A stretch of 64,000 nucleotides of DNA from Halobellus sp. MBLA0158. Lineage in GTDB: Archaea > Halobacteriota > Halobacteria > Halobacteriales > Haloferacaceae. Positions 23,593 to 29,289 of this stretch are shown here, in pieces (position 1 is the first letter of the stretch; each line of letters starts with the position of its first letter). Position numbers and translations under genes: made by a program. The notes beneath the pieces are model-generated. The model did not search any database and was not told the DNA's origin. It saw nothing but the letters and a program-made list of their open reading frames with translations. The stretch covers positions 1,364,001 to 1,428,000 of the forward strand of contig NZ_JBGNYA010000001.1 in assembly GCF_041477585.1 (NCBI RefSeq), given 5' to 3'.

Positions 23593-24321
23593 ATGAAGAT
23601 ACTCATCACGATGGCGGGACGCGGGAGCCGCTTCCGTGAAGTCGGCGTATCCCGGCCGAAACACGAAATCGAGGTCCGAGGTGAGCCGATGTTCGATTGG
23701 GCGATGCGGAGCCTAGAAGCGTTCTTCGACGAGGAGTTCGTATTCGTGGCCCAAGCGGAGCACTCGCCGACCGCGTTCATCGACGCCGCGACGACGCGTC
23801 TTGGAATCGGCTCCTACAACGTTGTCATCCTCGACGAATACACGGCCGGGCAGGCATCAACCGCGATGGCTGCCGCCGATTCGATTGGCTCCGACTCGGC
23901 CGTCGCGATATACAATATCGACACCTACATCGAAGAAGGAGCGCTGACGCCCGATGTCATCGAGGGTGACGGATTCATTCCGACGTTCTCTGCCTCCGGG
24001 ACCCGGTGGAGTTTCGTCGAAACCACTTCCTCCGGTGAGGCTACTGCCGTCTCGGAGAAGGAGAAGATATCGAACGAGGCCACGGTAGGGTTCTACTATT
24101 TCGACCGGTGGGCGCATTTCGTCGACGCCTATCGAGAACGCGCAGACTCCGTTGAGGGAGAATATGGCGAGACGTACGTGGCACCGCTGTACAACCATCT
24201 CATCGAGCGAGGCGGCCGAGTGACGACGTACGAGCTTGACCCGGAAGACGTGCACGTGCTCGGAACGCCGACGGACCTTGAGCGGTTCGACGGGACGTTC
24301 GATCCGATGGATCAGACGTGA
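23593..24321 (+). CDS. Sugar-phosphate nucleotidyltransferase
   Basis: 242 residues. It begins MKILITMAGRGSRFREVGVS, the signature GxGxR loop of NTP transferases, followed by RPKHEIEVRGEPMFDWAMRS. AIYNIDTYIEEG holds the DxD-like metal site, EKEKISNEATVGFYYFDRW is the substrate lid, and YVAPLYNHLIERG the C-terminal helix. It is related to small cytidylyl- or thymidylyltransferases of capsule and phosphocholine loci. TGATG coupling with the next gene points to one pathway that makes an NDP-activated group. Nucleotide and substrate are unknown. Confidence 0.8.
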   Translation: MKILITMAGRGSRFREVGVSRPKHEIEVRGEPMFDWAMRSLEAFFDEEFVFVAQAEHSPTAFIDAATTRLGIGSYNVVILDEYTAGQASTAMAAADSIGSDSAVAIYNIDTYIEEGALTPDVIEGDGFIPTFSASGTRWSFVETTSSGEATAVSEKEKISNEATVGFYYFDRWAHFVDAYRERADSVEGEYGETYVAPLYNHLIERGGRVTTYELDPEDVHVLGTPTDLERFDGTFDPMDQT

Positions 24322-25982
24322 TGGCGCCGCAAATCGAGAAGGACGAGGTTCTCCTCGTTCCCTCCGCGGTGATTGTTCCTGACGAGCTACGGCTCGATGT
24401 CGGCTCGGTCCCGTCGGGTATGATCACGCTGCGCGGAAAGCCGATGTTGGAACGTATTGCCGCAGCGTACACGGATTTGGACGTCACCAGAGTCGTCGCC
24501 GCCGACACGGGGCGCGAGCGCATCGAACAGTACGTCTCGCGAAGCGAGTATGACTGGACTGTCGTTGATGTTGCCGGAACGGAGAGTCTTGCAGACACGG
24601 TAGAAATGGCACTTTCGGCTTTCCCTGCCGCCGACCTACGCAACACGGGGCTCTACGTGAACTTCGCGGACACGCTTGTCTCTCCCGTCCGCACCGTAGC
24701 GAGCGGAGACTACGTTCCATACAGAGTAGAAGACCGAACTTACCGCTGGACGGCGTTCGAGATTAAAAACGGAGACATCGAAGATATCACCCCGAAGTAC
24801 GAGCGCGCCTCGTCTGGCCCACGTCCGGTATTTGTCGGTCAGTTCGGCATCTCGTCGGCGGATGCGTTATTAACGGCACTCCGAAATGCAGATAGCGACT
24901 ATATCCCTCGGTTCTACGCCGGGTTACGGGCGTATCTTTCGGAGCGAACGTACGACCTATGGGAACCCAACACGTGGATCGACGTCGGCCACTTGGACAC
25001 CTACCATATGGCGAAGAAGCAATTCTTGAACACCCGCGAGTTCAACGAACTCCACGTCGATAGCGGGAAGAACGTCATCACCAAGCGGAGCAACGACGCC
25101 GAGACGCTGATAAGCGAAATCAACTGGTATAACCAGGTGCCGTCCGCTCTCCAGCCGTATCTCCCACGTATCTACGACTGGTCGACTGACGGTGAGAAGC
25201 CGTTTGTGCAGATGGAGTATATCGGCTATCTCTCCCTGAGTGACCTCCAGTTGTATGGTTCGCACGGACAGCACCTCTGGAACAGGATATTTTATCGCTT
25301 GATGCAGATGCTCGCGGAGTTCCGGGAGTTTACGGTCACCGACACGGAGAAGATTTGCGACGCGCTCAAGTCGATGTATGTCGATAAGACTCGGCGACGA
25401 TTGAATACACTCCGTGACGACGAGCGCTTTGAGCCGTTCTTCGGCCGGGATGAAGTTGTCGTTAACGGGGCCTCACACCCCTCCTTGGGCGAATTCCTTG
25501 GGCAGCTCGATTCGATAGTTGAGGAGGAGTCACTACTCTGCCGGGGCGAATTCACGATCATCCACGGCGACCTCTGCCTGCCAAACATCCTCTACGATCC
25601 GCGCAACCAGATCGTCAAACTCATCGACCCGCGCGGAGCGTTCGGCTCGTTCACGGTATACGGCGATCCGCGATACGATCTCGCGAAGCTACGTCACAGC
25701 TTCGTTGGGCACTACGAACACCTGATAAACGGCCAGTTCGACGCCTTCCGACTCGGAGACCGAGAGCTTTCGTACGACGTCCACGTTACGGACGAGCAAC
25801 AGCGCCGGGAGGCTCGGTTCGACACAGTTCTCGAAGAGGAGGTTCAGGACTCTCTTTCCCAGATTGAGCTGATTGAGGCGCTCCTCTTCTTGAGTATGGT
25901 CCCGCTCCACTCGGATAGCTATGAGAGACAGCTCTGTATGCTCTCTCAGGGTATCGAGAAGATCACGCCATTTGTCCGCTGA
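24321..25982 (+). CDS. Fusion of a degenerate nucleotidyltransferase domain and an APH/choline-kinase-like kinase
   Basis: 553 residues from ATG 24321 (TGATG overlap; a GTG one codon earlier is possible). Residues 1-220 keep the nucleotidyltransferase outline (GMITLRGKPMLERI, LWEPNTWIDVGHLDTYHMAK) but lack the GxGxR catalytic loop, so activity is doubtful. From about residue 250 a kinase follows: FTIIHGDLCLPNILYD (HGDxxxxN catalytic loop) and VKLIDPRGAFG (the DFG-like DPR). YDLAKLRHSFVGHY is the helix after it. Small-molecule phosphorylation is expected. With an active nucleotidyltransferase before and a phosphatase after, it forms a three-gene cassette. Confidence 0.75.
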   Translation: MAPQIEKDEVLLVPSAVIVPDELRLDVGSVPSGMITLRGKPMLERIAAAYTDLDVTRVVAADTGRERIEQYVSRSEYDWTVVDVAGTESLADTVEMALSAFPAADLRNTGLYVNFADTLVSPVRTVASGDYVPYRVEDRTYRWTAFEIKNGDIEDITPKYERASSGPRPVFVGQFGISSADALLTALRNADSDYIPRFYAGLRAYLSERTYDLWEPNTWIDVGHLDTYHMAKKQFLNTREFNELHVDSGKNVITKRSNDAETLISEINWYNQVPSALQPYLPRIYDWSTDGEKPFVQMEYIGYLSLSDLQLYGSHGQHLWNRIFYRLMQMLAEFREFTVTDTEKICDALKSMYVDKTRRRLNTLRDDERFEPFFGRDEVVVNGASHPSLGEFLGQLDSIVEEESLLCRGEFTIIHGDLCLPNILYDPRNQIVKLIDPRGAFGSFTVYGDPRYDLAKLRHSFVGHYEHLINGQFDAFRLGDRELSYDVHVTDEQQRREARFDTVLEEEVQDSLSQIELIEALLFLSMVPLHSDSYERQLCMLSQGIEKITPFVR

Positions 25983-26020
25983 CCGAAAGACATTCGGGGT
26001 CAACCCAGTATCCAAGGAAT

Positions 26021-26425
26021 ATGAAACCGCCCGCGGACAAGCGAATTGTCTTCGATATTGATGGCGTAATATGCAAGAAAGATGATAGGAAAGACTACTC
26101 CGAACGAGAGCCTCATACAGAAGTAGTAGAGCAACTCCGGGAGTACGACGATCAGGGATACTACATCATCCTCTACACCGCTCGAAATATGAATACGTAT
26201 GAGGGACGTATCGGTCGAATCAACGCGGACACGGCCAAGACGCTGTTGCAGTGGCTCGAAGAACACGATATCCCGCACGACGAGATTCATTACGGGAAAC
26301 CGTGGTGTGGCCACGAGGGATTCTACGTCGACGACAAGGCCATTCGGCCGTCCGAGTTACTGGAAAACTCGCCAGACGAAATCCGTGCAATTCTTGATGC
26401 CGAAGATGAGTTTATGAATAGTTAG
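26021..26425 (+). CDS. Small HAD-superfamily phosphatase
   Basis: 134 residues. IVFDIDGVIC (residues 9-18) is HAD motif I with the nucleophile and acid/base Asp. IILYTARNMNTYEG carries motif II (Thr), HYGKPWCGHEGFYVDDKAIR gives the Lys and motif IV Asp pair. No cap domain, as in small capsule-locus phosphatases. It lies 38 nt after the kinase fusion on the same strand. A role in removing phosphate from an intermediate of the same pathway is inferred from that order. Confidence 0.82.
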   Translation: MKPPADKRIVFDIDGVICKKDDRKDYSEREPHTEVVEQLREYDDQGYYIILYTARNMNTYEGRIGRINADTAKTLLQWLEEHDIPHDEIHYGKPWCGHEGFYVDDKAIRPSELLENSPDEIRAILDAEDEFMNS

Positions 26426-26778: not shown

Positions 26779-26909
26779 GAAAGAGTCACGTACGAAGTAG
26801 CAAGGGCGGGATGCTCTTATGCCGTAGATTGACTCTATGGCTCTGGTGAATCGCTGTACTGCAGCAGGATAGGTCGTCAATCAAAAGGAAGTGAAGCGGG
26901 AAACCCGCG

Positions 26910-27702
26910 GTGGTTATGTCGAAGATCGCCCGCTTCACAACGAAAGCGGTCACGTTAGCTAAAAATGTTGTTGGTGGCCGAGGCGAAGTCGCCGCCCCCG
27001 AAGGGGATGGCGGCTTCCCCGATCACGCTCTTGTATCGCTTTACTGTCTACAGATTTACCTCGATAAGTCGTACCGCAACGACCTCGATCTGCTGAGTGA
27101 AGTACCGCATATTCTCGCCGATATCGGCCTCAAAGAGGGGGATCTCTCTAACCACTCGACGTTGGTAAAGGCGTTTGATAGCTTCGAGATGAAGATCTGG
27201 CGAGTGCTGCTGCGCCTGTCGGCGCAGCTGCACGACCCGAGCGGTCACGCCGCCATCGACGCGACGCTCTTCGACCGCGAAAACGCCAGCAAGCACTACT
27301 GCTGCCGGACGAATTATCGCGTTCAAACACTCAAAGGGACCGCTCTCGTCGATACAGTATCTCAAGCTGTCCTTGACGTTTACTGTACGACTGAGAAAAA
27401 CCCACGACACACAGCTCGGCTGGCAGGTCTCCTGCCGCAACGCAGGCGACCTGACCAGCCTCGCCGCTGACAAGGGCTACGATTGGATGGATTTACGCGA
27501 GAAACTGCGTGAAGAAGACGTGAGACCGCTGATTAAGCATCTCATCTTCCGGCCCATCGACCACGCGCATAACGCGCGGGTTGATGAGCCTCGCTATCGC
27601 CAGAGATCAATGTATGAGACCGTTTTCTCGTCGATCAAGCGCACGCACGGCGACGCCGTGCGTGCGCGAACGTGGTACGAGAATTTCGTGAACTCGTCTT
27701 GA
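26910..27702 (+). pseudogene. IS5-family transposase with one frameshift
   Basis: The first frame (26916-27470) reads MSKIARFTTKAVTLAKNVVG, LHDPSGHAAIDATLFDRENA (first Asp) and YRVQTLKGTALVDTVSQAV. Near 27385 it shifts to RNAGDLTSLAADKGYDWMDL (second Asp), RPLIKHLIFRPIDHAHNARV and RQRSMYETVFSSIKRTHGDA (Glu). The order and wording match haloarchaeal IS5 elements. One shift separates the two halves, and the 3' end is followed by an IS630 scrap. Confidence 0.8.
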
Positions 27703-27778
27703 AATGTGTCGTTCACAACATCAGGCGTGCCGCAACATAGCCAGATCAACCGCTATATGGCGATTCACCAGAGCCCTC

Positions 27779-28146: not shown

Positions 28147-29289
28147 ATGATTGGCATCTCCGTTTCCCTGTATGATAAATTTGACGATTTAAGTATAGCT
28201 CACGATATAATACGTCATAATTGGGAAGATGAGTACTATATATCAGTGTGTTCAAACCATCCTGATGCATCTGAACGAATTAATGAACTTGACCTCGAAA
28301 TAGATTCTTTCCAACGAGGTGCACAGATTCCTTTTGAGGATAAAATGGAAGACCGACATAAGCGGACGAATTTCTTATTAAGGGTAAATGATACTATTCG
28401 AACAGCTATCAAAAATGCATTCACTGAGGATGCTGTGGATTATGTTCTTCATTTGCATTCGGATGCGTGGCCCCTATCAGAGCAAAGTCTGAAAGATCTA
28501 ATCAGGGATATGGACAATCGGAATGCGGACGTAGCATTCAAAGTAGATACACGTAAGTTCCTAAATAATTATCCACCAGGACACATTATGGATCAGTTTA
28601 TGATCTTTAATGTCAAGTCTTGCTCCTCAAATAATCTGTTCGAACGAAGTATTTTAGACTTTCCACCAGGCATTCACTCTCATAGACTGATTATGATGGA
28701 ATGTATCGTTACCCTGGGCTGGGATAGTCTCTACCATTATTCAAATCGTACGGAGGAAACATTTTGGGACGGGAAGCCAATTCCATCAACTGGCCGAATT
28801 GTTAGACCGATGGTATATAACCCAAGTTTTGATCAACTTCACGTTGCTACAGAGGACTTTCCAAATAATCTAGGTAAGTCTTTGCAGTCGCATTACCTAA
28901 AAGAATATGGATTAACTGATGGAAACTATATAAAGGAGTTGATAAATAACCACTCGGCCTCTGCTACCGACCTATTCCATAATTTAGATGTATTTTACAA
29001 TGAATTGGATCGGGAGCTCAAATGGTACTATGGATTATCCACGGAGTCAATGGGAAGAGAAACCCCTAAAATTAAATTATATACTGATTTGCCTCGTCTT
29101 GAAAAGACAAAAAAAATAGTTCGTCATAATGTAGATAATATGTTAAGGGGTAGCTACAATCGAGTCAAAAATATGCTTGGCGGTGCCAATCCGAATTCGT
29201 CTATAGAAGCGGGATCCGCGGATCTGCTACTACATAATTATTATGAGGACATATTAAATACAGAGGAGCTTCCAGATGACATCTCATAA
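28147..29289 (+). CDS. Probable GT-A type glycosyltransferase
   Basis: 380 residues. It starts MIGISVSLYDKFDDLSIAHD, after which an SVCSNHP segment follows the first beta strand. VDYVLHLHSDAWPLSEQSLK places an HSD in the usual DxD position. ADVAFKVDTRKF and the MDQFMIFN segment fit the acceptor half, and GKPIPSTGRIVRPMVYNPSF a later loop. The C-terminal 90 residues are basic and helical. AT-rich codons match the 8-11 and 13-14.8 kb blocks. The family is not certain; a GT2-related transferase is the best reading. Confidence 0.6.
   Translation: MIGISVSLYDKFDDLSIAHDIIRHNWEDEYYISVCSNHPDASERINELDLEIDSFQRGAQIPFEDKMEDRHKRTNFLLRVNDTIRTAIKNAFTEDAVDYVLHLHSDAWPLSEQSLKDLIRDMDNRNADVAFKVDTRKFLNNYPPGHIMDQFMIFNVKSCSSNNLFERSILDFPPGIHSHRLIMMECIVTLGWDSLYHYSNRTEETFWDGKPIPSTGRIVRPMVYNPSFDQLHVATEDFPNNLGKSLQSHYLKEYGLTDGNYIKELINNHSASATDLFHNLDVFYNELDRELKWYYGLSTESMGRETPKIKLYTDLPRLEKTKKIVRHNVDNMLRGSYNRVKNMLGGANPNSSIEAGSADLLLHNYYEDILNTEELPDDIS

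Follow-up and report, generated by a model that had tools for sequence, protein, structure and literature searches.

What would a haloarchaeon make with an active-looking nucleotidyltransferase (NT), a fusion protein joining an NT-like half that lacks the nucleotide loop to a kinase, and a HAD phosphatase, all encoded side by side? Such a set lies in the window, a 64,000-nucleotide stretch of the genome of Halobellus sp. MBLA0158. The original prediction, which knew of no comparable haloarchaeal system, read it as a set that could activate and attach a small phosphorylated group, with a logic like that of phosphocholine or phosphoramidate decoration of bacterial capsules. Its description of the genes (three of them, with a TGATG coupling, a 553-residue fusion and a 38-nt gap) agrees with the sequence in every detail. 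Left out was a fourth gene, here called G4 (28147-29289), which is parted from the HAD gene by an inserted element (26839-27775). The features are as follows:

23593..24321, + strand: NT (P0001), 242 aa, with an intact G-x-G-x-R...PK loop and the NIDT and EK motifs
24321..25982, + strand: fusion (P0002), 553 aa, made of a pseudo-NT half and a kinase half
24321..25025, + strand: pseudo-NT half of the fusion, N-terminal, residues ~1-235, without nucleotide loop
25029..25982, + strand: kinase half of the fusion, C-terminal, residues ~237-553, APH/methylthioribose-kinase-like, with HGDLCLPN and IDPRG
26021..26425, + strand: HAD (P0003), 134 aa, HAD-III phosphatase, EcbF/BcbF-like, a TIGR01689 relative
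26839..27775, no strand assigned: inserted element bounded by 16-bp inverted ends, GGCTCTGGTGAATCGC, with a transposase-like ORF broken across two frames
28147..29289, + strand: G4, fourth cassette gene, ~380 aa, with an HLHSDAWPL motif

The ATG of the fusion at 24321 sits within the NT stop (TGATG overlap), and the gene for the HAD, which has the DxD motif, starts 38 nt past the fusion stop. The proteins were searched against Pfam, NCBIfam and PDB, and the structures of the NT and the fusion were predicted, giving two confident models (one of pLDDT 95.0, one of 96.9). The NT loop reads MAGRGSRF...PK, unbroken on inspection, and this protein is predicted to be catalytic. Its best match, by sequence and by structure, is the NDP-sugar pyrophosphorylase 4evw of V. 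cholerae, at 31% identity; 4evw is a structural-genomics target with no substrate known to us. The HAD matches TIGR01689 (EcbF-BcbF) over residues 7-130 of 134 (E 6.9e-45), its nearest PDB entry by sequence is 1xpj, and D12, D14, K93, D104 and D105 are invariant among 73 aligned sequences. It resembles the EcbF/BcbF capsule biosynthesis phosphatases over its whole length, with the catalytic residues kept, but scores below the curated cut-off of that family (152.1 vs 162 bits). In the fusion, the G-x-G-x-R position reads 'LLVPSAVIV..' instead, and the pseudo-NT half has conserved D117-T118, W143, G173 and W219-x-D221-x-G223. The structure search gave GlmU and the CTP:inositol-1-P and LicC cytidylyltransferases as neighbours of this half, and methylthioribose kinase and aminoglycoside kinases as neighbours of the other, which matches the APH family at 2.8e-8 and is predicted from its fold to be a small-molecule kinase of the APH/methylthioribose type. 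No match was returned by a Pfam search of the G4 protein. Cell-wall recycling of the MurU/AmgK/MupP type was considered and rejected, with the NT far under the MurU cut-off (22.3 vs 250 bits).

Part of this evidence would suit an activated compound that is no sugar but a small phosphorylated group, for example phosphocholine or phosphoramidate. LicA/LicC phosphocholine decoration likewise joins an APH-like kinase and an NT in decorating a surface, the kinase fold is common to APH-type and choline kinases, and LicC is a structural neighbour not only of the fusion but also of the NT (rank 18). However, the structure closest to the NT remains a sugar-nucleotide enzyme, the family search listed no choline/ethanolamine kinase match for the fusion kinase, and the one homologue for which a genetic phenotype exists, KfoE of E. 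coli K4, works in fructosylation of a capsule. We consider activation of such a group hardly probable. What stands of the original prediction is a linked set with an activating role, most likely in building a surface glycan; the small phosphorylated group does not stand, since neither phosphocholine- nor phosphoramidate-like chemistry finds family support.

Nor is the cassette confined to haloarchaea. A scan of one genome per species (84,980 species) recovered at least 377 relatives of the fusion in bacteria and archaea, and gene neighbourhoods were counted in the best 80 loci among them. There, pseudo-NT and kinase share one ORF in 72 of the 80; the NT is present in 76, the HAD in 64 and both in 62. 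Fusion and partner are co-directed in 139 of 140 pairs and at most 100 bp apart in 104, and HAD and NT form a single ORF in seven loci. The two halves are never found in one ORF in eight loci, several of which have the kinase alone, so the kinase can occur separately from the pseudo-NT. In bacteria, the cassette is situated in capsule and O-antigen loci, next to WavE, CDP-glycerol-type transferases, ABC exporters or flippases. Because the same three genes occur together in most of the 80 loci, in many phyla, and because NT, fusion and HAD each have a high-confidence model or match, their linkage in the window is not due to chance. The window set is a haloarchaeal representative of a capsule cassette that is widely distributed, and a chemistry can be proposed for it.

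Within the haloarchaeal class, the full fusion was found in 5 of 391 genomes, the HAD in exactly these five, and G4 in six (all five plus one other). With genomes treated as independent, overlap with the fusion by chance would have a probability of ~1e-11 for the HAD and ~8e-11 for G4. A neighbourhood search in other archaea, as originally proposed, placed the NT next to the fusion in all four haloarchaeal relatives checked; the HAD adjoins the fusion in L008/L019, L009 and L010 and lies beyond G4 in L011. G4 belongs to the cassette together with NT, fusion and HAD, and is a candidate transferase for the activated sugar. In the tree, the haloarchaeal fusions form one clade together with that of an Anaerolineales bacterium, at whose locus a G4 homologue is placed between HAD and fusion; both the shared clade and this homologue fit a transfer between bacteria and haloarchaea.

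The element at 26839-27775, which parts the HAD from G4, raises the question of whether the window locus is decaying and non-functional. Genome G023, with a mere G4 fragment at its cassette and a longer copy elsewhere, could be read in the same way. However, all four genes of the window are open and conserved, with G4 intact downstream of the element, and a full or nearly full G4 away from the cassette is found in G119 as well as in G023. Decay is, in our assessment, improbable.

A phenotype is available from E. coli K4. Its chondroitin synthase KfoC (PDB 2z86, 1455 bits) identifies E. coli locus L210 as a K4-type capsule locus. The primers with which kfoE was deleted, as given in PMC7429809, match L210 at the ends of the fusion gene, one stretch (50 of 50 nt) immediately upstream of the fusion start and the other (50 of 50 nt) a short way into the NT gene; therefore, KfoE is the fusion homologue, and it is this gene that was deleted in the published non-fructosylated K4 strains. 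Deletion of kfoE abolishes fructosylation of the K4 capsule, leaving non-fructosylated chondroitin, and KfoE is named a fructosyltransferase in the literature (PMC7925653, PMC7429809). Since the NT start codon was lost in the same deletion, the published phenotype tests fusion and NT together. Region 2 of K4 and the window hold the same three adjacent proteins, with homology near full length for the HAD (47% identity, E 4e-43) and the NT (35%, E 1e-50) and over 550 columns for the fusion (25%, E 3e-48), and in K4 they lie in a capsule locus. The two differ in host, in gene order (HAD-KfoE-NT, with KfoD, in K4; NT-fusion-HAD in the window), in the presence of G4 in the window set and in the clade of the fusion. 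Regarding two findings that would speak against the original prediction, homologues do belong in part to a characterised pathway, through KfoE, but the genes are far from unlinked elsewhere.

Taken at its name, KfoE and with it the window fusion would itself transfer fructose, and the end of fructosylation upon kfoE deletion is what such a role would give. The name is not backed by the predicted fold, which combines an NT with a kinase, has complete kinase motifs and includes no glycosyltransferase domain beyond the NT-like half; moreover, a transferase would leave the HAD and NT partners unexplained. We regard this role as very unlikely. From its fold and motifs, which point to an NT-like domain and a small-molecule kinase, KfoE is predicted to serve more probably in the activation of fructose than in its transfer. 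KfoD-like proteins, which have a domain common to L210, L209, L016, L017, L015, L214 and L098, are candidates for the actual fructosyltransferase; KfoD itself has no Pfam match. G4 and KfoD gave no match to each other in a direct BLAST comparison. G4 as a relative of the bacterial L014/L056-type cassette neighbours was also tried and rejected (0.1% probability in profile comparison). In E. coli WP7-S18-ESBL-09, an IS1 element splits the K4-type fusion gene (L210, 9270-11615), and this strain may therefore make a non-fructosylated capsule.

A search of the accessible papers found no description of a donor for fructose in bacterial capsules, and we know of no biochemistry of these cassette enzymes. 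We hypothesize, giving it an even chance, that the cassette supplies a surface glycan with a nucleotide-activated sugar, most likely fructose. We infer the following scheme, including its step order, the nucleotide, the heteromer, the transferase role of G4 and the use of fructose in the archaeon. The kinase half would phosphorylate the anomeric (C2) hydroxyl of Fru-6-P and the HAD would take off the 6-phosphate, or else the HAD would act before the kinase; together they would convert Fru-6-P to Fru-2-P. The NT would then form NDP-fructose from fructose-2-P and a nucleotide, while the pseudo-NT half, itself inactive, would bind the active NT as a partner and guide it. Fructose would be transferred by a separate protein: G4 in haloarchaea, and in bacteria one resembling KfoD or WavE. 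A similar logic operates in the ADP-heptose pathway of HldE and GmhB, where a kinase yields a sugar bisphosphate, a HAD removes the distal phosphate and an NT activates the product; the HldE kinase, however, is of another family, and the NT fused to it is active. More tentatively, the cassette may represent an undescribed route to NDP-fructose, widespread in both bacteria and archaea, in which an anomeric C2 kinase fused to a dead NT is heteromeric with a live NT and KfoE is the activating enzyme rather than a fructosyltransferase. If NDP-fructose is made, it would be a new sugar nucleotide and would explain a gene set found in hundreds of species; if the route is real, fructose-type surface decoration would extend to haloarchaea, and a further case of dead-enzyme partners for nucleotidyltransferases would be added.

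The identity of the sugar deserves separate treatment. Since the window fusion lies outside the KfoE clade, which separates at 100/100 in the tree, and since its identity to KfoE is low, fructose in this archaeon is put forward as roughly as likely as not; we are considerably more confident of a sugar-nucleotide pathway serving a surface glycan. A point against fructose is that the haloarchaeal fusions form a deep clade apart from the KfoE-like fusions, so the substrate could have changed. The same logic might serve another ketose or aldose in the haloarchaeal/Chloroflexota clade, for example a pentulose, a heptulose or arabinose. Partner transferases differ as well (G4, WavE and KfoD types), and the cassette is carried by the E. 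coli O78 and O20/O137 O-antigen loci, whose published repeats contain, to our knowledge, no fructose. On the other hand, fructosylation is the sole phenotype known for the family, and the catalytic residues of kinase, NT and HAD are conserved across clades. We consider a different sugar unlikely, but worth keeping in mind.

Fructose finds some backing in other E. coli loci. The K52 and K11 capsules contain fructose. Locus L209, whose cassette occurs in 37 E. coli genomes, one of them labelled O15:H18 strain ST69, probably corresponds to K52, the commonest K locus in CC69 (PMC13171598). The link between K52 and L209 is supporting evidence for fructose rather than proof. Plasmid locus L017 looks similar to group 3 loci borne on plasmids, K11 among them. 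The core fructose of V. cholerae may also be made by the same cassette, an idea given no weight here.

Why would the fusion keep an NT-like half without a nucleotide loop? The loop is intact in none of 76 aligned fusion homologues, and D117, W219, D221 and G223 are strictly conserved among them; this half is therefore constrained and not drifting. A second cassette type combines a loop-altered NT with an intact NT, either as two genes (haloarchaeon G117, Ruegeria, Roseinatronobacter) or in one fused ORF (Rhizobium, Sinorhizobium):

L204, 7515-8959 (G117): second-type locus
L216, 3239-4723: second-type locus
L217, 2941-4753: second-type locus
L218, 2939-4768: second-type locus
L219, 3242-4735: second-type locus

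A HAD-family phosphatase adjoins in all four bacterial loci and WavE in two, and in G117 a G4 remnant follows the NT pair. By profile score, these loop-altered NTs resemble active NTs more than they do the pseudo-NT half, so the loop may have been altered on more than one occasion. The presence of both forms in one polypeptide argues, at the level of gene architecture, for physical pairing of altered and intact NT, and the recurrence of such pairing elsewhere, including one-ORF fusions, suggests that the window NT and pseudo-NT may form a heteromer with an inactive partner. GDP-mannose pyrophosphorylase offers a parallel, its inactive paralogue GMPPA being paired with the active GMPPB, and structures of this type are matched by both window models (7d74 for the NT, 7d72 for the fusion). 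It differs in that the inactive NT of the window is fused to a kinase; we know of no feedback role for an inactive NT of the window type.

A few further occurrences were noted. Viral contigs searched with the NT (P0001) gave no match. Proteins homologous to the kinase half are encoded by many phages, T4-like and Enterococcus phages included, and some of these proteins also have an NT-like half (records H9-H28, loci L099-L178). Contigs of Enterococcus pallens carry three copies of the cassette (L052, L053, L057). Finally, haloarchaeon G041 combines an NT whose loop is intact with a kinase in one fusion, encoded beside a KdsC-like HAD phosphatase (L012, 7376-9620), possibly a related pathway.
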